Of a DNA stretch of 58,965 nt, positions 3,194-58,965 are shown piece by piece. The stretch is taken from positions 1 through 58,965 of the IMG/VR virus record IMGVR_UViG_3300044654_000030; one strand, 5' to 3'. The stretch's first letter is position 1; every line of letters starts with the position of its first letter. The notes under the pieces are model-generated. The model was given only the letters and a program-made list of their open reading frames with translations. It was not told where the DNA came from and searched no databases. This stretch comes from a virus. A program made the position numbers and the translations under genes.

Positions 3194-3940
3194 ATGATCG
3201 ACACCGACGCTGCGCCCGCCGCCGTCCGCGCCGCCCGCCGGCTCAAGGAGCACACCGTCTCGGCCGGCCGTCCCTTCCTCCCCCCCGTGATCGCCACGGA
3301 GCATGCCGGGCGGCTCGCCTGGCTGGCGATCGCCCCCGAGGCGGACATCGAAGCCGCCCTCGTCGCCGCGGAGATCGCCTGGACCAGCGGCACCTGGGAC
3401 GCCCTGTCCTTCGCGATGGACACCTGCTTCGTCCTGGGCGCCATCGGCGAGTCGCCCGAGGCGATCCGCCGCCGCTACCCGCCCGGGGCCATCCAGGACG
3501 CCTGGGAGCGGGGCGGGCCGGCCGCCCGGGAGGTCGGCCACGCCCTGATCGTCCACCACCAGGCCAGGGCCGGCGCCCGGCACATCGCCCTGCTCCCCTA
3601 CCGCCCCGGCACGCCCGGCCGGGCCTTCGCTTGGCTCGACGAGGGCGCCATCGCCGCCCGCCTCGGCCGCGGCGTCCGCCGCCCGGAGGCCGGCGGGCCG
3701 ATCCTCGACCGCCTCCGCCGGGTCGTCCGCCGGCCTCCCGAGATGGAGGCCGAGGACGTCCGCGCGGTCTGCCGGGAGCAGGGGATCGGCCCCCGGCTGG
3801 CCCGCGCCATCGCCCGCGACGTCGCCGACCAGGTCCTCCGCGGCTACGGCTACGCGGTCCTGGGCGAGCGGGTGCTCCGCGCCTGGTTGGACGGGGAACA
3901 TCTCACGGAGCGGGAAGTTCAAGAAGTCCTGGGGCTCTGA
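3194..3940 (+). CDS. Hypothetical protein, 248 aa
   Basis: I do not recognise this gene. It is mainly alpha-helical and hydrophilic: an Ala-rich N-terminal helix, a central region with WTSGTWDALSFAMDTCF and a HALIVHHQARAGARH stretch, and a C-terminal part rich in Arg/Glu helices ending in REVQEVLGL. No signal peptide or membrane span. Codon use matches neighbouring phage genes. It is preceded by about 200 bp of non-coding DNA (2997-3193) with a weak CACCC/GGGTG hairpin near 3081 and no convincing promoter. Confidence 0.7.
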   Translation: MIDTDAAPAAVRAARRLKEHTVSAGRPFLPPVIATEHAGRLAWLAIAPEADIEAALVAAEIAWTSGTWDALSFAMDTCFVLGAIGESPEAIRRRYPPGAIQDAWERGGPAAREVGHALIVHHQARAGARHIALLPYRPGTPGRAFAWLDEGAIAARLGRGVRRPEAGGPILDRLRRVVRRPPEMEAEDVRAVCREQGIGPRLARAIARDVADQVLRGYGYAVLGERVLRAWLDGEHLTEREVQEVLGL

Positions 3941-3997
3941 CCGACATGGGAAAGCATCGGGCGCGCGGCGCGCCCCGTATCCCCCGAGGACCCCACG

Positions 3998-5285: not shown

Positions 5286-6956
5286 TCAGAAGACGAGCCA
5301 GGCGCGCTCGCAGTTGGTTCGAGTGGTTGAACATCCCGTTGATGGAACTGCGAGCGCGCCGTCGTCCCCCAAGCCCAAGTCCAGACACAAGTTCAGGTGA
5401 TGGCCGTCCCCCAGGAACCGGGCGTCGAGCCAGTCCAGGATGTGCCGTCGCTGGTCCCACGTCTGGGCAGCCTGGTTCTCCAGCCCGGCACGGACCTGCG
5501 CGGCGTGCCGGGCCAGGGCCTCCGCCTTCGCGTCGATCGCGTCGTAGCCGGCCAGCAGCCCCTGGAGCTGCGCGATGCGGGCCGCGTGGCCGTCGCGCTC
5601 GCGATTCGCCTGGGCGACCTCGCGGAGGATCATGTCGCGCAGCTCGGGGTCGTCCTGCCTGCCGAAGCTCTCCATCATGTTCTGCGCCCGGCGCTCCGCG
5701 TCCTGCTTCGCCCGCTCGGCCGCGGCCAGGCTCTCGCGATGCAGGGCCTCGCCGGGCTTGTCCCGCGTCATCCGGGCGATCTCCTGCTCGATCAGCCCCG
5801 CGGTGGTGAGCACCCGGACGACCTCGGCCCAGGCGACGTCGCGGATCTCGTCGTCGTAGACGGCCCGGACGGGGCAGGCGGGCGTGCCCGGGGTGCGGAG
5901 GTGTCGGTTGCAGCGATAGCAGGGCCGGTACGCGGGCCCGTCGCCGGCGCGACGATCGCGCGTGTAGGAGACCCACATCGGGCCGCGGCAGGCCATGCAG
6001 TAGATCCGCCCCCGCAGGAAGGTGGAGGCGCGGGCGGCGCGGCCGGCGGCGTGCCCGATGCGGGCGTGATGGCGGGCGGACATCGCGGCGACGGCCCGGT
6101 CCCAGGTCGCGGCGTCCACCAGGGCCTCGGTCTTGGCGTCGTGGGCGACGGTCCAGCGCTCCCGGGGCAGCTTGCGGTACTTCTTCCGACCGATCGTCTC
6201 GTACCGGAGGTGGGTGCTGACGCCCTTGTAGACCTCGTCCCGGACGAGGGCGTGGATGATGCCCGTGGTCCAGCGGGCCCGGCGCGACCGCGGCGGCAGG
6301 CCGCGCCGGGCGCCCGGGGTCGGGACCTGGTGCCGGTTCAGCTCATCGGCGATCTCCGTCAGGGTCCAGCCCTGGTTGGCGAGCCAGTCGTAGATCCGGC
6401 GGACCCAGGGGGCGATCCGGGGGTCCGCGACGCGGGTCCGGGTCTTCTTGTCCCAGGTCAGGCCGTACCGCCCGCCGCCTTCGCCGACGAGCTGCCCGGC
6501 GTCGCGGATCTCCTTCTTGACGCGCATCGTCCGTTCCTGGATCAGCTCCCACTCGACCTCATGGGCCCACCCCCGGATGGCGAGCATCACCTTGCCGGTC
6601 GAGTTGTCCTCGATCGGGACCAGGACGCAATGGACCCGGCAACCCCGGCGGCGGAACTCCTCGACGAGGACCTGGAGATCGGTCATGTCGCGCGCCAAGC
6701 GTTCGGTGTTGTGGACGATCACGCCGCCGATGGCCCCGACGCGGGCCAGCTCGCGGATACGCCCCAGCCCGGGGCGGATGTCGGCGGTCTTCATGCCGGA
6801 GAAGCGCTCGAAGACGACGAGATCGGGCGGGATCTCCAGGCCGCGGGCGTCGGCGAACTGGCGGATCGACGCGAGCTGGGTGTGCAGGGAATCGTCGGCG
6901 TCGCCGTGCTCATCCGAGACGCGGCAATAGGCGGCAAAGGGCTTGGTCTGGCTCAT
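5286..6956 (-). CDS. int: Large serine recombinase (phage integrase)
   Basis: 556 residues; catalyses site-specific integration and excision of the phage genome. The N-terminal resolvase domain carries catalytic Ser14 in AAYCRVSDE and an active-site Arg region around HNTERLARD. A recombinase domain follows (residues about 160-310, including RRIYDWLANQGWTLTEIADELN), then a Cys4 Zn ribbon (IYCMAC ... CYRC ... CP, about residues 317-360), then a long coiled-coil of about 110 residues, as in other large serine integrases. The start has a strong GGAGGAGG and its own promoter. The last 25 codons coincide with a 60-bp imperfect palindrome that resembles an attachment site. Confidence 0.95.
   Translation of the reverse strand: MSQTKPFAAYCRVSDEHGDADDSLHTQLASIRQFADARGLEIPPDLVVFERFSGMKTADIRPGLGRIRELARVGAIGGVIVHNTERLARDMTDLQVLVEEFRRRGCRVHCVLVPIEDNSTGKVMLAIRGWAHEVEWELIQERTMRVKKEIRDAGQLVGEGGGRYGLTWDKKTRTRVADPRIAPWVRRIYDWLANQGWTLTEIADELNRHQVPTPGARRGLPPRSRRARWTTGIIHALVRDEVYKGVSTHLRYETIGRKKYRKLPRERWTVAHDAKTEALVDAATWDRAVAAMSARHHARIGHAAGRAARASTFLRGRIYCMACRGPMWVSYTRDRRAGDGPAYRPCYRCNRHLRTPGTPACPVRAVYDDEIRDVAWAEVVRVLTTAGLIEQEIARMTRDKPGEALHRESLAAAERAKQDAERRAQNMMESFGRQDDPELRDMILREVAQANRERDGHAARIAQLQGLLAGYDAIDAKAEALARHAAQVRAGLENQAAQTWDQRRHILDWLDARFLGDGHHLNLCLDLGLGDDGALAVPSTGCSTTRTNCERAWLVF
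5301..5360. repeat. 60-bp palindrome, candidate attP, inside the 3' end of the integrase gene
   Basis: A perfect 15-bp inverted repeat, GGCGCGCTCGCAGTT at 5301-5315 and its complement at 5346-5360, is separated by 30 bp. Extended pairing gives about 22 of 30 positions per half. Length, symmetry and position beside a large serine integrase match the layout of attP sites. No T-tract follows on either strand, arguing against a terminator. Confidence 0.5.
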
Positions 6957-7186: not shown

Positions 7187-7474
7187 TCACGCCCTCCGCT
7201 CGGTGGCCGCGAGGAGCTCCAGGAGGGCGGCCCCGCGGACCCGGAGGGCCTGCCGCTTGCCCGGCGACGCGATGTCGATCGCGGGGAGGACGCCGCGCTT
7301 CCAGAGGTTGCGGATGTGGTCCGGGCTGCATTGCAACAGCCGGGCGGCCTCCTGGCGATCGAACAGGGCGTCGGGGTCGATCGTCGGGGGTTTGGCACCC
7401 AGGACGGCGGCCTCCAGGGCGTCCAGGCGGGCCACCAGGCGGGCCTCCAGGGCGGCACAGTCGGGGCAGGTCAT
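7187..7474 (-). CDS. Excisionase/MerR-type HTH protein, second of a tandem pair
   Basis: 95 residues. It begins MTCPDCAALE with a CxxC, then a short coiled-coil, then a helix-turn-helix of the excisionase (HTH_17) type: FDRQEAARLLQCSPDHIRNLWKRGVLPAIDI, ending in a basic wing. It overlaps its upstream paralogue by ATGA. Position just before a serine integrase suggests a recombination directionality factor or integrase regulator; that role is inferred. Confidence 0.75.
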   Translation of the reverse strand: MTCPDCAALEARLVARLDALEAAVLGAKPPTIDPDALFDRQEAARLLQCSPDHIRNLWKRGVLPAIDIASPGKRQALRVRGAALLELLAATERRA

Positions 7475-7752
7475 CGATACGGCCTCCGCTCGCGGGCCGC
7501 GTGCCACGCCAGGACGGCGGCCCCGGTGGTCCGGAGGGACTTGTTCCGCCGGCCCCCCGGCGTGACGTCGATGGCGGGGAAGTCGCCCCGCGTGACGAGG
7601 ATGCGGGCGTGGGACACGCTGCACCCCAGCAGCCGGGCGACCTCCGGGATCGTGTACAGGGCCTCCGGGTCGATCTTCGGGGTCCGGGCCGCCTGGGCGG
7701 CCTCCAGGGCGGCGACGCGAGGTTCCAGGGCGGCACAGTCGGGGCAGGTCAT
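7471..7752 (-). CDS. Excisionase/MerR-type HTH protein, first of a tandem pair
   Basis: 93 residues with the same N-terminal MTCPDCAALE as the next gene, a short coiled-coil (RVAALEAAQAARTPKIDPEA) and the HTH LYTIPEVARLLGCSVSHARILVTRGDFPAIDV. The two proteins clearly arose by duplication but their recognition helices differ, so they probably read different sites. First gene of a leftward operon leading into the integrase. The divergent spacer 7753-7861 has no clear promoter. Confidence 0.75.
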   Translation of the reverse strand: MTCPDCAALEPRVAALEAAQAARTPKIDPEALYTIPEVARLLGCSVSHARILVTRGDFPAIDVTPGGRRNKSLRTTGAAVLAWHAARERRPYR

Positions 7753-25915: not shown

Positions 25916-26677
25916 ATGCCGGACAGGACACCAGTGACGTACGCCTATATCCGCATGTCGAAGGCGAGCCAGGTGGGCTCGCCGGACGACCAGCGGGACA
26001 CGATCGGCCGCACGGCGGCGGCCGACGGCCGCTCGGTGGACATCTGGATCACCGACGCGGCGATCAGCGGCAAGGTCCCCCTCCTGAAGCGGGAGGGGGG
26101 CCGCGAGCTCGACGCCCGGCTCAAGAAAGGGGACCACGTCTACATCGCCCGGCTCGACCGGATGTTCCGCCGGGCGAGCGACTGCGCGCTGATCATCGAC
26201 CGCTGGCAGCGGATCGGCGTCCACCTCCATGTGTGCAACCTCATGGGGATGGGCATCGACCTCAGCTCGGCGGTCGGCCGGTTCATCGCGCTGATCCTGG
26301 CGGCGGTGGCCGAGCTGGAGCGGGAGTTCATCGCCGAGCGGACCCGCGACAGCCTGGCCCGCCGCCGCCGCACGGGCGGCGCGTGCGGCCGGTACGCCGG
26401 CTACGGGTGGAAGTGGCGCAAGCTGTGGGACCCCGAGAAGGGTCGCCACGTCAAGACCAAGGTGCGCAACGAGGAGGAGCGCGCCATCATGAGGGAGATC
26501 GTCAAGTGGCGGGCCGAGGGCCACAGCTTCGACGAGATCTCCCAGCATCTCACGTACACCCTGAAGGTGTTGACGTGGGAGGGCAAGGAATGGACGCTGA
26601 AACGGTGCCAGCGGGCCTACGTGGCGGAGCTGAAGTTGCAGCTCGCCGAGGCCCGCCGGGGCGACCACGAGGCATAA
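25916..26677 (+). CDS. Serine recombinase, resolvase/invertase type
   Basis: 253 residues from ATG 25916 (GGAGGG upstream). N-terminal catalytic domain with Ser15 in YAYIRMSKASQ, DQRDTI, active-site Arg region ARLDRMFRRASD, LAAVAELEREFIAERT helix E, then a short recombinase-type domain with RTGGACGRYAGYGWKWR and an HTH-like segment KWRAEGHSFDEISQHL. Much shorter than the phage integrase and with no Zn ribbon, so closer to resolvases, invertases or small transposon recombinases. It might invert a segment, resolve multimers or belong to a passenger element. Confidence 0.88.
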   Translation: MPDRTPVTYAYIRMSKASQVGSPDDQRDTIGRTAAADGRSVDIWITDAAISGKVPLLKREGGRELDARLKKGDHVYIARLDRMFRRASDCALIIDRWQRIGVHLHVCNLMGMGIDLSSAVGRFIALILAAVAELEREFIAERTRDSLARRRRTGGACGRYAGYGWKWRKLWDPEKGRHVKTKVRNEEERAIMREIVKWRAEGHSFDEISQHLTYTLKVLTWEGKEWTLKRCQRAYVAELKLQLAEARRGDHEA

Positions 26678-52832: not shown

Positions 52833-53996
52833 CTACGCCAGGCTGGCGGCCTCGGACAGGTCGATCGGCATGTCCCGCAGCCGCTGGCGCAAGGGCGCCT
52901 GGTGGCCGGCGGACCGGCCCTGGAACGAGCGGCTGTCGGTCGCCTTGGCCTCCCGCAGCGCCTGCGCCGCCAGGGCCAGGGCGTCGGCCTTGGACTCGGC
53001 GTTGCGCAGGACCGCCAGGCGGGCCTCGGCGGCGCGGAGGAACGCCGTGAGCATCGCGCCGGGCTCCAGGTCCACCGGGTCGGAGATCACATAGGGGCTC
53101 GCCGGCAGCGTCGCCGGCGCCGGGTCGGCCAGGGTCAGGTCGGCGGCGTCCTGGTAGCCGACGATCATCGTCTCGAAGACGGCCGGGTTCAGCCCCTCCG
53201 GGCCGGTCGGCATCAGGCTCGGCGTCCCGAGCCGGAAGACCGAGCCGACCAGGTCGGGAGTCCACGTCGCCCCGGGGCCGAAGACCGACGCCACCCCGGC
53301 GGTCACGACCGCCTGGCCGACGCCGACCTTCGCCACCCGCAGGGGACGGGGCTGGCGCAGGTAGATGAAGTCGATCGACCGGACCTCGGTCGGCACCGGC
53401 AGGAGCCGGATCACCATCCGCCCGGGGTACTGCCGGTCGCCGGTGAAGGTGTAGCACCGCGGCACGCCCTCGGCGAACACGTAGCGGTTCTCGAACAACC
53501 ACGTGCGCGGATGGACATATTCCATCCCGCCGAAGTTCAGCTCGTAGGACGCCCGGTCGGCCGCGACGAAGTCGGCCGGGAGCGGGTACGTGTCCTGGTA
53601 CAGGGTGTAGGCCGTGCCGGCGGGCAGGTCCTGCCCCGGGTTGACCTCCTCCTCCAGGGTGAGCTGCGTCGCGTTGACCACCGACGCCACGCGGTACGCC
53701 ACCGTGCCGACCCGGAGGTAGCCGCCCGCCGCCCAGGCCGGCCAGGTCCCGCCCGTCAGGGTGACGAGCCGGGGTACGGACCCGGACGAGTGCTGATAGG
53801 CGATGGTGCCGGCCGAGGCCGGGGCGTTGGTGACGATCCGGCCGTGGCGGAGGAGGTACGTCCAGGTGTGGGCGGCGGCGACGTCGCGGTACGCCTCCTG
53901 GATCGCCCGCCGGCAGTCGCGCTGCACCGCCTCGGCGGGGTTGCCGCCGAGGTAGTCCACCAGCCGGTCGAGCACGTCCTGGTACGTCACGGGCAT
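52833..53996 (-). CDS. Tail adaptor-like protein (tail tubular protein A type)
   Basis: 387 residues. N-terminal helices (YQDVLDRLVDYLGGNPAEAVQRDCRRAIQEAYRDVAAAHTWTYL) and then beta-rich domains with GNAPAS, TLEEEVNPGQDLPAGTAYTLYQDTYPLPADF and RMVIRLLPVPTEVRSIDFIYLRQPRPL follow the architecture of podovirus tail adaptors, which connect portal to nozzle. It lies on the expected side of the nozzle-like gene and the portal. Its start overlaps the last membrane microgene. Confidence 0.7.
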   Translation of the reverse strand: MPVTYQDVLDRLVDYLGGNPAEAVQRDCRRAIQEAYRDVAAAHTWTYLLRHGRIVTNAPASAGTIAYQHSSGSVPRLVTLTGGTWPAWAAGGYLRVGTVAYRVASVVNATQLTLEEEVNPGQDLPAGTAYTLYQDTYPLPADFVAADRASYELNFGGMEYVHPRTWLFENRYVFAEGVPRCYTFTGDRQYPGRMVIRLLPVPTEVRSIDFIYLRQPRPLRVAKVGVGQAVVTAGVASVFGPGATWTPDLVGSVFRLGTPSLMPTGPEGLNPAVFETMIVGYQDAADLTLADPAPATLPASPYVISDPVDLEPGAMLTAFLRAAEARLAVLRNAESKADALALAAQALREAKATDSRSFQGRSAGHQAPLRQRLRDMPIDLSEAASLA

Positions 53997-54115
53997 CGGG
54001 GCGGCCCCTCATCCCCCGGGGGACGCCCCGAGGGGAACACGAACACGGCGATCAGCAGGCACACGAAGGCGACGACGGCGCGGACCCAGTCCCAGGCCGC
54101 CCGGATCAGGGACAT
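53987..54115 (-). CDS. Single-span membrane microprotein, fourth of a chain
   Basis: 42 residues: MSLIRAAWDWVRAVVAFVCLLIAVFVF then a Pro/Gly/Arg tail. One strong hydrophobic helix. It starts within the end of the third microgene and its stop lies inside the start of the adaptor gene. Ribosome site GGGGGCGG is weak, so it may rely on coupled translation. Part of a probable lysis or membrane module. Confidence 0.6.
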   Translation of the reverse strand: MSLIRAAWDWVRAVVAFVCLLIAVFVFPSGRPPGDEGPPRCP

Positions 54116-54228
54116 GGCCGCCCCCGATCCCGCCAGTCCGCGAGGACCGCGGCGACCAGGACGACGACCAGGATGCCGACGCAGGCGGCGACCTGGAGGA
54201 CGGGGTTCACGTCGTGAGCAGGGGGCAT
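54106..54228 (-). CDS. Single-span membrane microprotein, third of a chain
   Basis: 40 residues with the membrane helix LQVAACVGILVVVLVAAVLADW flanked by polar ends. GGGAGGAG at good spacing before the ATG. Overlaps both neighbours in other frames. Confidence 0.6.
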   Translation of the reverse strand: MPPAHDVNPVLQVAACVGILVVVLVAAVLADWRDRGRPCP

Positions 54229-54344
54229 CGGCACTCCTCCCGGGGGGGCGCCAGCCCGGCGATCGCCCGGCGGGCGAACGCGACGAGGCGGCGGGCCAGG
54301 TCGTAGATCGTGACGAGCGTGACGAGCGCGCGGATCAGGAACAT
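54207..54344 (-). CDS. Amphipathic membrane microprotein, second of a chain
   Basis: 45 residues: MFLIRALVTLVTIYDLARRLVAFARRAIAG, an amphipathic helix with clustered Arg, then a Pro/Arg/Cys tail. GGAGG before the ATG. Overlaps the first and third genes. Amphipathic helices of this kind can disrupt membranes, but that is inference. Confidence 0.55.
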   Translation of the reverse strand: MFLIRALVTLVTIYDLARRLVAFARRAIAGLAPPREECRCPLLTT

Positions 54345-54451
54345 GGCGGCCTCCGGAAGAAGGCGCCCACGACGGAGACGACCATGAGGCCGACCAGGGC
54401 GCCGGAGCCGAGCAGGACGATCACCAGGAGGAAGGTCACGGGGTCGGGCAT
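54335..54451 (-). CDS. Single-span membrane microprotein, first of a chain
   Basis: 38 residues with a long hydrophobic helix FLLVIVLLGSGALVGLMVVSVVGAFF and a basic RRPPCS end (N-out/C-in would fit the positive-inside rule). Overlaps the end of the 204-aa gene and the start of the next microgene. Weak ribosome site. Confidence 0.6.
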   Translation of the reverse strand: MPDPVTFLLVIVLLGSGALVGLMVVSVVGAFFRRPPCS

Positions 54452-55050
54452 GGGTCGCTCACCAGCAGGGGGCTCTCGTCCACCAGGCCGGACCGGAGGG
54501 CCCGGACGTCCTCCGCGACGTCCTCGCGCCGGCGGCCCGGGTCGAGGGCCAGGACCTCGTCCACCTCGCGGGCCACCAGGTCGTCGGCCAGGCCGACCTC
54601 GGGGATCGGCTCCACCTCGGGGGGCGTGTACTCCACCAGGCCCTCGACCTTCAGGCCCTTCCTGCGGGCCACGGCGAGCACGTCGTGGCGGTCCGCAACC
54701 CATGCCTCGGGGTCGCCGGGGTACTCCGCCAGGGCGGCGCTGTAATACTTGCCGGTGGTGCTGACCCCGGCCGCCTCGGCGGCCCGACGGTAATAGTCGC
54801 CCAGCCCCGGGCAGCGCTCGAACTGGTTGCCGTTGCACCGGCCCCGGTTGAACTCGACGTCGGTCCGCACCCCGGGGAACTGCCCGGTCGCCAGGACGAT
54901 CGCCAGCCGGTGGGCGGTCCCCTCGGCCCGGCAGGTCATGTACCGCACGTAGGCCGCCGCGGGCAGGGCGTGGACCTCCGCGTGCTCGTCGTCCGTGAGC
55001 GTCGCCAGGGCCGCCAGGCACGCCGCCCCGAACTCGGTCCGGTCAGTCAT
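54436..55050 (-). CDS. Hypothetical protein, 204 aa, N-terminus duplicated in next-door gene
   Basis: N-terminal helices (LATLTDDEHAEVHALPAAAYVRYMTCRAEGTAHRLAIVLA) resemble those of the 63-aa protein directly upstream. The middle contains FNRGRCNGNQFERCPGLGDYYRRAAEAAGVSTTGKYYSAALAEYPGDPEAWVADRHDVLAVARRKGL, then an acidic C-terminal tail. Unknown function. Lies between portal and tail adaptor. Confidence 0.65.
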   Translation of the reverse strand: MTDRTEFGAACLAALATLTDDEHAEVHALPAAAYVRYMTCRAEGTAHRLAIVLATGQFPGVRTDVEFNRGRCNGNQFERCPGLGDYYRRAAEAAGVSTTGKYYSAALAEYPGDPEAWVADRHDVLAVARRKGLKVEGLVEYTPPEVEPIPEVGLADDLVAREVDEVLALDPGRRREDVAEDVRALRSGLVDESPLLVSDPCPTP

Positions 55051-55243: not shown

Positions 55244-57172
55244 TCAGTCGGGGAGTCCCGGCACCGGCTCGCCCTGCGGGGTCTGCTCCTGCACCGGCGG
55301 CGGCGGGGCCTGCGCGAGCTGATACCGCGCCGGGTCGAGGTCGCGGGACTTCGCCCAGTCGGCCAGCAGGTTGTTCAAGGGGCCCAGGTCGCCGGTGGCC
55401 TGGGCGTAGGTCAAGAGGGGCTGGAGCATCACCTGGATCGCCTCGTTCATCCGGGCGACCTGCCCCTCCTTGTTCGGCTTGCGGGTCGAGCCCGCCTCGA
55501 TCCGGTACTCCAGCTCGCGGCACGCCGCGTTGGTGTCGGCCGTGTGGACGAACTGGTCCCAGAGCACGGCCGCCGCGTCGCCCAGGATCGGCTGGACGTC
55601 GGCGCCGCCGAGGTGGTAGCGGGAGAGGATCGCCTCCTTGATGGAGGCCCGCGTCATCCAGGACTCCACCACCTTCGCCATGTCGTCGGGCCGGACCGCC
55701 ATGCCCGAGGAGCGGATCGACGCCTCCTCGGCCGAGCGGATCTGGACGTCGGGGTTGGAGCCGTACATCAGCTCCGTCAAGCCGACTCTTTTATCAAAAT
55801 TCGTCTCGACCGCCTCGATCACCTTCCAGATGTCGCCGTTGATCTCCGGGTGCTGGAGGAACTGCACCAGCTCCTGGATCGTCCCCGGGTGGGACGCCTC
55901 GATCTCCAGCAGGGTCAGGTCGCGGCCTTCGAGGATCGCGGTCTTGATCTCCTCGGAGACCTCCTTCTTCACCGCGATGAAGTCCCGCGTGGTGGTCCTC
56001 ACCTTGCCCGCCAGGAAGCTCGTCGCCCAGTTGAGGAACTTCAGCTCGCCCAGGCCGGCCTTCAGGTGGCTCATGGGCCAGGGGGTGTTCCACACCGGGT
56101 GGAAGTCCAGGCAGGTGACGGGCCAGTCGCCGGCCGCCCAGTACGGCGTGGGCCAGGCGACGCGGTCGAGGACCTCGGACGGGTCGCCCTCGAACCCGGC
56201 CGCCTCCTGGACCTCGGGCGGGAGGTTCAGCGGGTAGGGGACGTCCTTGGCGATGATCAGGTAGACGTAGTCGCCGAAGATCTCCAGGGGCGCCCGGTAG
56301 CGGCGGTTGATCCCGGAGAGCCGGCCGCCGATGCCGAGCTTGGAGTACACCTTCCAGTAGGTCAGCAGGTCGCAACTGACGCCCCGCTTGCGGTCGTACA
56401 GGACGTCGTCGTCCACCAGGGCGGACGCCTGCACCGCCTGCGACTCCAGGTTGCCGCGGAGGCTCCCCGGGCGCAGGCCCAGGTCGCGCTCGACCTGCCA
56501 GGTCGGGTGGACGCACCGCCGGGCGATCCAGAGCGCCGAGTCGAGGGACCGGGCGTCGGGGTCGATGGAGAGGTCGTCCACGCTCATCCAGTCGGTGCAG
56601 GCGACGCGGAACGACTGGCCCGGCGGGGTGCGTAGCTCGGTCCAGAGGCACCCGCGGCCCTTGACCAGCGCCTCCTCGATCGCCAGCCGGCTGGCGCGGC
56701 CCAGGTCGTTCTCGATCGGCGTCCAGTTCAGGTAGGAGGCCAGCAGGGCGGCCCGCAGGGCGTCGGCCGCCAGGCGGACCTGCTCCTGCTGCTGGTAGGC
56801 GAACTCCGTGGTCGGGTCGCCGAACGCCCCCTGGGGGATGTCGATCGGCGCCCGGGGCGTCACGGTGCGGACCGGGTTCTGGAAGTACAGCGCCGGGCCG
56901 AAGAGCGTCACCAGCTCGAAGGCTTTGTTGACGCTGATCTTGAACAGGGGGTCGGGGATGTCCTCCCCCACGCTGATGGACCGCGGGCCGTACATCAGCT
57001 CGTCCCACGACCGCGGCCCGTTGTAGAAGCTCATGCACTCGTCGGCATCATTCTGGAAGACCTGCCGCTTGTGCTGGCGGGCCTGCTCCAGCTTCGCCAC
57101 CCACTGGGCGCAGCACGCCCGCAGGACGGGGTCCTCGTCACGCCGGCCGGTGCCGAGCTCGGGGTCGGGCAT
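55244..57172 (-). CDS. Portal protein
   Basis: 642 residues; dodecameric ring at the capsid vertex through which DNA enters and leaves. Helical N-terminus (WVAKLEQARQHKRQVFQNDADECMSFYNGP), long mixed alpha/beta core with EDIPDPLFKISVNKAFELVTLFGP, KGRGCLWTEL, and a helical stem-like region (NFDKRVGLTELMYGSNPDVQIRSAEEASIRSSGMAVRPDDMAKVVESWMTRASIKEAIL), ending in a Pro/Gln-rich tail. Placement directly next to the terminase large subunit supports the call. Confidence 0.88.
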   Translation of the reverse strand: MPDPELGTGRRDEDPVLRACCAQWVAKLEQARQHKRQVFQNDADECMSFYNGPRSWDELMYGPRSISVGEDIPDPLFKISVNKAFELVTLFGPALYFQNPVRTVTPRAPIDIPQGAFGDPTTEFAYQQQEQVRLAADALRAALLASYLNWTPIENDLGRASRLAIEEALVKGRGCLWTELRTPPGQSFRVACTDWMSVDDLSIDPDARSLDSALWIARRCVHPTWQVERDLGLRPGSLRGNLESQAVQASALVDDDVLYDRKRGVSCDLLTYWKVYSKLGIGGRLSGINRRYRAPLEIFGDYVYLIIAKDVPYPLNLPPEVQEAAGFEGDPSEVLDRVAWPTPYWAAGDWPVTCLDFHPVWNTPWPMSHLKAGLGELKFLNWATSFLAGKVRTTTRDFIAVKKEVSEEIKTAILEGRDLTLLEIEASHPGTIQELVQFLQHPEINGDIWKVIEAVETNFDKRVGLTELMYGSNPDVQIRSAEEASIRSSGMAVRPDDMAKVVESWMTRASIKEAILSRYHLGGADVQPILGDAAAVLWDQFVHTADTNAACRELEYRIEAGSTRKPNKEGQVARMNEAIQVMLQPLLTYAQATGDLGPLNNLLADWAKSRDLDPARYQLAQAPPPPVQEQTPQGEPVPGLPD

Positions 57173-57519: not shown

Positions 57520-58965
57520 CTAGCCCAGGCGGATCGAGTCGCCCCAGCCGGGGTCGCGGCCCCGGGCCCGCTCCCGGCGCCGCTTCGCCTCCAGGGCGTC
57601 GGTGGTGTACCCCTTCGCGCGGGGCTTGACGGCGGGCCGGCGGTACGGGAGCCGCGCCATCGCCAGGTAGCGCCAACAATCGATCAGGTGATCGTTCGCC
57701 TTGATCGGCTCGTCGGTGACGATGCCCGAGGGGAGCTTCTTGTAGCTGTACCGCTCGGCCTCCCAGAGGAGCATGGGGCACGAGTCGCGGAACACGACCC
57801 ACTTCGAGCGCCCCTCGGCGTCGAGGTGCAGGCCCGCCCGCACCGCCTCGATCCCGGCCCGGACGTCGTCGCCGCCCGAGGCGGTGGACCAGGTGAACCC
57901 GGTCAGGTGCCCGGGGCGGAAGACCCCGGCCTGCGCCAGGGCGCGGCGGTACTGCTCCTCGTGCGTCACCCCCGAGCCGATCTCGGTGATGCGCCCGGCC
58001 CGCATGTCGATGATCGCCTTGTGGACCACCTGATCGCCTAGTTTTCTCCGCAATTCCTCCGCGAACCGGGCGGCGGTCGCCTGGCGGATGTAGAGCTCGT
58101 CGTACAGGAACACCCGCCCGGCGTGGGGCGAGCCCGGCGGCGGCACGGCGGCGAACAGGACGGCGCAGACCTGCCGGCCCGGGTCCACGGCGATGTAGCG
58201 GGTCCAGTCGCTCGGGATCGGGAAGGCGTCGCACCCGTGCGGCCCGCGGGGCGCGAACTCGGCGTAGACCCGCGTGCCCAGCAGGGCGAAGTCGCCCAGC
58301 ACCCGGATGCGGTACTCGTCGGCCGAGAGCTTGGCCGCGAAGTCCCGCTTCTCCTTCTCCCCCAGGTGCGGGTTCTCCAGCAGGGTCAGGTGGAACTCCC
58401 GCACCGGCGGGTCCTCCACCCCGGCCGCCTCCAGCTCGTGCGCCCGGCAGTGCAGGTCGTACAGGTGCTGCGTCCCCGCCTGGGGCGTCGCCGTCCAATA
58501 AAAGAATCCTTTCCTGTCAATGATCCGGGCGCTGGTCTCGGTGTACCAGGACGGGTGGTCGATCTCCTCGTCGAACCAGGCGGCATCGACGTCGATGCCC
58601 TGGCGGGGCTCGCCCACGCTGGAAAAGAACAGGAGCTCCCAGCCGTTGTGCAGCAAGACCTTGCGCGGGATGCCCGACTTCTTGTCCTCCCACGCGACGC
58701 CCTTGATCAGGTTGGTCGGCAGCAGCGGCGGGGCCGGCTTGGCGCGGGCGGCGTGGGCGGCGTCCCAGGGGTCGTGCGGCCGGAAGGCACGCCAGGCGCC
58801 GTCGGGGCCGCGGATGATCTTGAAGGCGCCGGGCCGCACCAGCTTGCGCCACATCACCTCGCCGCAGTGGTTGAGGTCCTTGCCGCACAGGAGGAACCGG
58901 CCGTGCTCCTTCGGGGCGCGGGGATTCAGGCCGCGGACCGTGCGGGCGCACATCACGGCGCCGAT
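57520..58965 (-). CDS. Terminase large subunit (N-terminus cut by the window edge)
   Basis: The DNA-packaging motor. The frame is open to the last base of the window; the first residues (IGAVMCARTVR) look like the helix that follows a Walker A motif, which must lie just outside. Seen: Walker B-like QGIDVDAAWFDEE at about residues 119-131, coupling motif FYWTATP about 153-158, nuclease-type acidic residues YIAVDPGR (about 255), IIDMRAG (about 315) and DHLIDCWRYL (about 415). The last residues are basic. Nearest neighbour is a small gene and then the portal. Confidence 0.92.
   Translation of the reverse strand: MGAVMCARTVRGLNPRAPKEHGRFLLCGKDLNHCGEVMWRKLVRPGAFKIIRGPDGAWRAFRPHDPWDAAHAARAKPAPPLLPTNLIKGVAWEDKKSGIPRKVLLHNGWELLFFSSVGEPRQGIDVDAAWFDEEIDHPSWYTETSARIIDRKGFFYWTATPQAGTQHLYDLHCRAHELEAAGVEDPPVREFHLTLLENPHLGEKEKRDFAAKLSADEYRIRVLGDFALLGTRVYAEFAPRGPHGCDAFPIPSDWTRYIAVDPGRQVCAVLFAAVPPPGSPHAGRVFLYDELYIRQATAARFAEELRRKLGDQVVHKAIIDMRAGRITEIGSGVTHEEQYRRALAQAGVFRPGHLTGFTWSTASGGDDVRAGIEAVRAGLHLDAEGRSKWVVFRDSCPMLLWEAERYSYKKLPSGIVTDEPIKANDHLIDCWRYLAMARLPYRRPAVKPRAKGYTTDALEAKRRRERARGRDPGWGDSIRLG

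Follow-up and report, generated by a model that had tools for sequence, protein, structure and literature searches.

Among holins it is common for non-homologous small membrane genes to occupy a fixed place. Holins of classes I and II have three or two helices per protein, and those of class III, the type represented by T of phage T4, are defined by an N-in/C-out orientation and a large periplasmic domain (PMC9636201). In the Gordonia phage CaiB four membrane genes with overlapping frames, gp16-19, form a distal cassette that has no neighbouring lysin, and a holin role was proposed for it from bioinformatics; the four proteins have 4, 4, 4 and 1 helices, none is a duplicate, and members of their families lie beside lysA in other phages (PMC9671378). 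The podovirus N4 has a lysis pair, gp62/gp63, of 109-110 aa each, within a cassette that also contains a SAR endolysin and spanins (PMC12642591). Clusters of membrane microgenes are already known in phages, and the four genes described here, A to D, are a variant found in an unusual but recurrent place.

Like CaiB gp16-19, A to D are four consecutive overlapping membrane genes distant from any recognised lysin, although B is amphipathic only. They differ from gp16-19 in that each encodes at most one helix, a duplicated pair is their likely origin, and they lie in the neck operon; moreover no homologue, beside a lysin or elsewhere, was found in the adaptor or g204 loci collected from relatives, and C and D had no match in 50,697 phage records. 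The N4 proteins, likened here by description, are similarly a pair of small membrane proteins, and alternative starts, possible for C, are present in gp62, but they are larger than the products of A to D and are encoded among endolysin and spanin genes.

Results

Genome organisation, relatives and host

The window, by which we mean the whole stretch of DNA analysed, is an IMG/VR virus record of 58,965 bases with a GC content of 73%. Its minus strand carries a packaging and tail block in the order terminase, a 106 aa gene (g106), portal, a 63 aa gene, g204, the microgenes, adaptor and tail genes. The relevant features are:

57520-58956, minus strand: terminase
55244-57172, minus strand: portal protein, SU10-type (weak Pfam score; relatives at most 63% identical)
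54436-55050, minus strand: g204, an all-helical orphan gene conserved in relatives, downstream of portal; overlaps A by 16 nt
54335-54451, minus strand: microgene A, 38 aa, single strong helix
54350-54354, minus strand: ribosome site of B, sequence GGAGG
54207-54344, minus strand: microgene B, 45 aa, cationic amphipathic helix; start region near-identical to that of D
54234-54240, minus strand: ribosome site of C, sequence GGAGGAG
54106-54228, minus strand: microgene C, 40 aa from its ATG, single strong helix; resembles A
53987-54115, minus strand: microgene D, 42 aa, single helix; overlaps the adaptor start by 10 nt
52833-53996, minus strand: tail adaptor (SU10_adaptor, PF24175)
5286-6956 and 25934-26677: two serine recombinases

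The adaptor passes the Pfam cut-off for SU10_adaptor, and the portal scores weakly against SU10_portal. The structure predicted for g204 is confident (pLDDT 88) and gave no fold match in the PDB. Elsewhere in the window, two small genes (7187-7474 and 7471-7752) are tandem duplicates with near-identical N-termini.

The adaptor sequence alone, used as a query in viral contigs, returned no match, so that profiles were required; profile scans of IMG/VR yielded about 300 loci with adaptor or g204. Portal, adaptor and capsid had no relative among the phage records, and the portals of the closest relatives are 56-63% identical. One of these, with a portal 59% identical, is a provirus integrated in Singulisphaera sp. 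GP187, and the host clade is therefore probably Planctomycetota. Together with the two serine recombinases, this provirus suggests that the phage is temperate. A sample of 392 Planctomycetota genomes and 45 from the same family contained few proviruses and one further good adaptor locus (L387), which has no microgene in the adaptor slot and carries two one-helix genes between terminase and g106.

The window breaks off at ribonucleotide reductase on its left side (1-121) and at terminase on its right (58956-58965). Between these two genes the relatives G016 and G017 encode a helicase module that is missing from the window, and the genome is accordingly probably incomplete, with perhaps 10 kb absent.

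The four microgenes carry a coding signal in register with their frames

An initial annotation, made from the sequence by itself, had reported four tiny overlapping frames in a row, lying between a portal-side gene and the tail adaptor and including two with good ribosome sites. These observations were borne out. The ORFs, all longer than 90 nt, run from 54451 to 53987 on the minus strand in successive frames, the portal-side neighbour being g204 and the downstream neighbour the SU10_adaptor gene. Consecutive genes overlap by 16 nt (g204/A), 10 nt (A/B), 22 nt (B/C), 10 nt (C/D) and 10 nt (D/adaptor). B and C are preceded by good ribosome sites, A and D by weak ones; C could also start at GTG 54234 (giving 42 aa) or GTG 54210 (34 aa), the best-placed ribosome site being that of the ATG at 54228.

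For each ORF, GC3 bias and codon log-likelihood are positive in its own frame alone out of the six, C being the weakest, and all four show the pattern of the genome, with GC3 of 0.85-0.96 against GC2 of 0.46-0.58. In 72-nt sliding windows the coding frame steps 0,1,2,0,1,2 from g204 across the four microgenes to the adaptor, each change falling at an ORF end, and at the boundaries of A to D the switch in codon-usage signal is about as strong as in the flanking genes. We conclude that the four microgenes are almost certainly real genes.

The fact that each successive ORF is shifted by one frame might raise the suspicion that a single longer membrane gene was split by frameshifts in the assembly. 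However, A to D and the adaptor each start with an ATG within the last 10-22 nt of the preceding gene, and off-frame ATG occurs at only 0.0009-0.0017 per codon in this genome, so that the start codons inside the overlaps are not due to chance and a frameshifted single gene is disfavoured. Two of the ORFs moreover have strong ribosome sites, and a 10-nt overlap of this form is also found at the D/adaptor junction, which is bona fide. An assembly artefact is therefore very improbable.

Predicted helices, topology and comparison with holin classes

On a 19-residue Kyte-Doolittle scale A, C and D are strong single spans with maxima of 2.78, 2.91 and 2.46, whereas B peaks at 1.43. A value of 2.4 or more has a probability of 0.0003 in random 41-mers of the window's composition. 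No other gene called in the 59-kb window exceeds 2.0, making A, C and D its sole strong single-span genes, a statement that, the contig being incomplete, applies to the sequence present. With a hydrophobic moment of 0.64 and a charge of +4, B is predicted to be amphipathic and not clearly transmembrane. The helix of A spans residues ~7-32, between an acidic N-terminus and a C-terminal RR; that of D spans residues ~11-29, after an Arg-containing N-terminus, and is followed by ~13 residues. Judged by charge, A and C should be N-out/C-in and D N-in/C-out, these helix and topology calls being estimates from a simple hydropathy scale and charge distribution.

None of the holin classes fits. At 38-45 aa and with at most one helix each, the four proteins lack the two or three helices of classes I and II. 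The single helix of class III is found in A, C and D and not in B (1.43). D resembles T4 T in its predicted single helix and N-in/C-out orientation but is without a large periplasmic domain; A and C are predicted to be oriented the other way round, and B is not clearly membrane-spanning.

Searches of A to D against Pfam, PHROGs and NCBIfam gave no match to a holin, antiholin, spanin or endolysin family, and at most sub-threshold hits to other families. The idea of spanin-like components, raised at the outset, finds no support: reading the sequences for Rz1 or u-spanin features revealed no positive n-region with a usable lipobox (the VAAC of C sits at the start of its helix) and no long periplasmic part or coiled coil. 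Nothing else in the window was recognised as a holin candidate or as a member of a holin family. Likewise no peptidoglycan hydrolase or endolysin was recognised beside A to D or among the window genes searched, although the contig is incomplete and lysins may escape recognition.

The quartet resembles a duplicated pair

The start regions of B and D are identical at 24 of 29 positions, which ranks first among the 3486 gene-start pairs in the window (mean identity 11.4, SD 2.6; z ~5); the second-ranked pair, 7187 and 7471, is likewise a tandem duplicate. At the protein level the similarity exceeds that of shuffled sequences for both B/D (p=0.003) and A/C (p=0.005), the latter value being the softer of the two because shuffling loses the clustering of hydrophobic residues. 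The start-to-start distance is 107 nt from A to B and 113 nt from C to D. Given that the B/D match is the best of all pairs, the simplest history, and a probable one, is that tandem copying of a two-gene unit gave rise to the quartet. This weakens the notion of a multi-component module, as the four parts look like one pair present twice.

One-helix microgenes recur directly upstream of the adaptor

Conservation of the four frames in relatives had been named as a check, and the outcome was mixed: relatives do not share the sequences of A to D, yet microgenes that encode a helix are found repeatedly in the same slot. With the window excluded, 9 of 113 dereplicated loci have a one-helix microgene directly 5' of the adaptor, with sequences unrelated to A to D or among themselves outside one family. 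The control slots gave 1/84 before portal, 1/107 before g204 and 1/63 before g64 (3/254 in total; Fisher p=0.0018), a p value that is indicative only and overstates independence, since the comparison of these four core genes was chosen after the data had been seen and six of the nine positives belong to one family. In an earlier test over the whole interval from portal to g64, with the window included, the enrichment was borderline (p=0.067).

The microgenes of the Singulisphaera provirus (45 aa) and of L136 (38 aa) both overlap the adaptor by 4 nt, and that of L222 encodes 63 aa. The remaining family, of 26-32 aa, occurs in more distant relatives; in L028, L029, L031, L242, L243 and L248 the length is 30-32 aa. 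Its dN/dS values lie mostly between 0.15 and 0.6, with 2 of 15 pairs near 0.9-1.0, consistent with mostly purifying selection. Its members share with A to D the single helix and the position directly 5' of the same adaptor gene; they differ in being single genes with a conserved motif of their own and no detectable sequence relation. The other 104 of the 113 loci have no microgene directly 5' of the adaptor, so a microgene in this slot is not essential. In several relatives g204 overlaps or adjoins the adaptor and leaves no gap, and in others the gap holds varied cargo.

Other membrane and lysis candidates in the clade

Most close relatives in which the terminase end is visible encode a one-helix protein of 73-113 aa between terminase and g106 (L125, L126, L128, L129, L130, L132, L134, L136, L387 and G023); the window has none there. 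In this protein the N-terminal helix is accompanied by a Pro-rich stretch and, in many cases, by a CPxC motif at the C-terminus; it is possibly a class III-like holin or another envelope protein. A secreted protein whose Cys and His are invariant and whose predicted fold is papain-like is encoded at 3263-3952 on the minus strand of L202 and has relatives in L205, L213, L090, L141, L142, L164, L087 and L163. The protein encoded next has a helix at its C-terminus, and in some relatives the neighbour is a gene of 78-79 aa whose single helix is borderline in strength. The secreted protein is a candidate secreted lysin of the clade, and none was seen in the window. We do not conclude that the phage lacks this peptidase, since some relatives have its gene upstream of terminase, the point at which the contig breaks off. 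The one-helix protein near terminase and the papain-like protein with its neighbour are thus rival lysis candidates in the clade.

Discussion

The reading that we place first, at a probability of roughly 0.38, is that A to D act late and in a holin-like manner on the inner membrane. According to this model, the four membrane microproteins would be translationally coupled products of a cassette in the late operon, lodged between g204 and the tail adaptor, and this cassette would have arisen by tandem duplication of an A-B type pair, consisting of an N-out single-span peptide and an N-in amphipathic or single-span peptide. The peptides would be made late, together with the virion proteins, would insert in the inner membrane and assemble through small-residue faces, and would permeabilise or depolarise that membrane at a set time, B and D serving as modulators or helpers of A and C. 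The late, coupled position, the single strong helices, the pairing, the turnover of sequences at a fixed place and the lack of any other recognised holin in the window together favour this role. Against it stand the failure to find a lysin, the mismatch with the holin classes and the patchy presence in relatives; in addition, relatives with an adaptor-slot microgene carry further small membrane genes elsewhere, among them that of the CPxC protein near terminase and one next to the gene of the papain-like protein, which count against a holin-like role for the slot. Of the original suggestion, real membrane microgenes at a slot where one-helix genes recur are upheld, whereas the possible lysis function finds no match to a lysis family and no fit to a holin class.

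Nearly as likely as a holin-like role, and equally tentative, is that the microgenes are membrane morons, exchanged in a cargo slot of the neck operon, that alter the envelope of the infected cell or lysogen and serve in superinfection exclusion, a block to DNA entry or host takeover. Their patchy presence suits accessory genes, one relative is integrated in Singulisphaera, and in relatives the cargo of the slots between portal, g204, adaptor and g64 is diverse and not homologous: some slots are empty, others contain one-helix microgenes or several genes, and single genes of 379 aa and 163 aa also occur. However, the tight overlaps couple A to D to virion genes, whereas classical morons carry their own signals, and A to D match no superinfection-exclusion family. 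It is also conceivable, if doubtful, that in this uncultured SU10-like group the slot 5' of the adaptor is reserved for one-helix microproteins, drawn from several unrelated sources, whose translation is coupled to that of the adaptor; the neck operon would then contain a lysis or envelope module, enlarged here to four parts by duplication.

Two further explanations seem to us unlikely. A to D may be duplicated small cargo of little present function that has kept the codon bias of its origin; the lack of homologues in the loci of relatives and the second tandem duplication in the same genome (7187-7752) would agree with this, but the strong helices and frame-perfect codon bias do not, nor do the mostly low dN/dS values of the comparable adaptor-slot family. 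About as improbable is a role as partners of portal or adaptor in the neck, for instance in membrane anchoring of assembly or packaging, or as part of the ejection channel of the virion. The overlaps with g204 and adaptor do suggest co-synthesis, and the slot before the adaptor is preferred over those before portal, g204 and g64. Yet microgenes are absent from most relatives with the same portal and adaptor, the occurrence of non-homologous sequences in one slot argues against a single specific protein partner, and the part of the SU10 virion structure report consulted lists no such subunit (PMC9509320).

Our literature search found no paper on the lysis genes of phages that infect planctomycetes, bacteria with unusual envelopes. 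The cassette described here, short, frame-perfect and in a place that is unexpected yet recurrent, provides a concrete and cheap set of candidates for testing, and its location indicates where to look for tiny membrane genes in related genomes. If the holin-like reading is right, these microgenes may help to time the bursting of the host.
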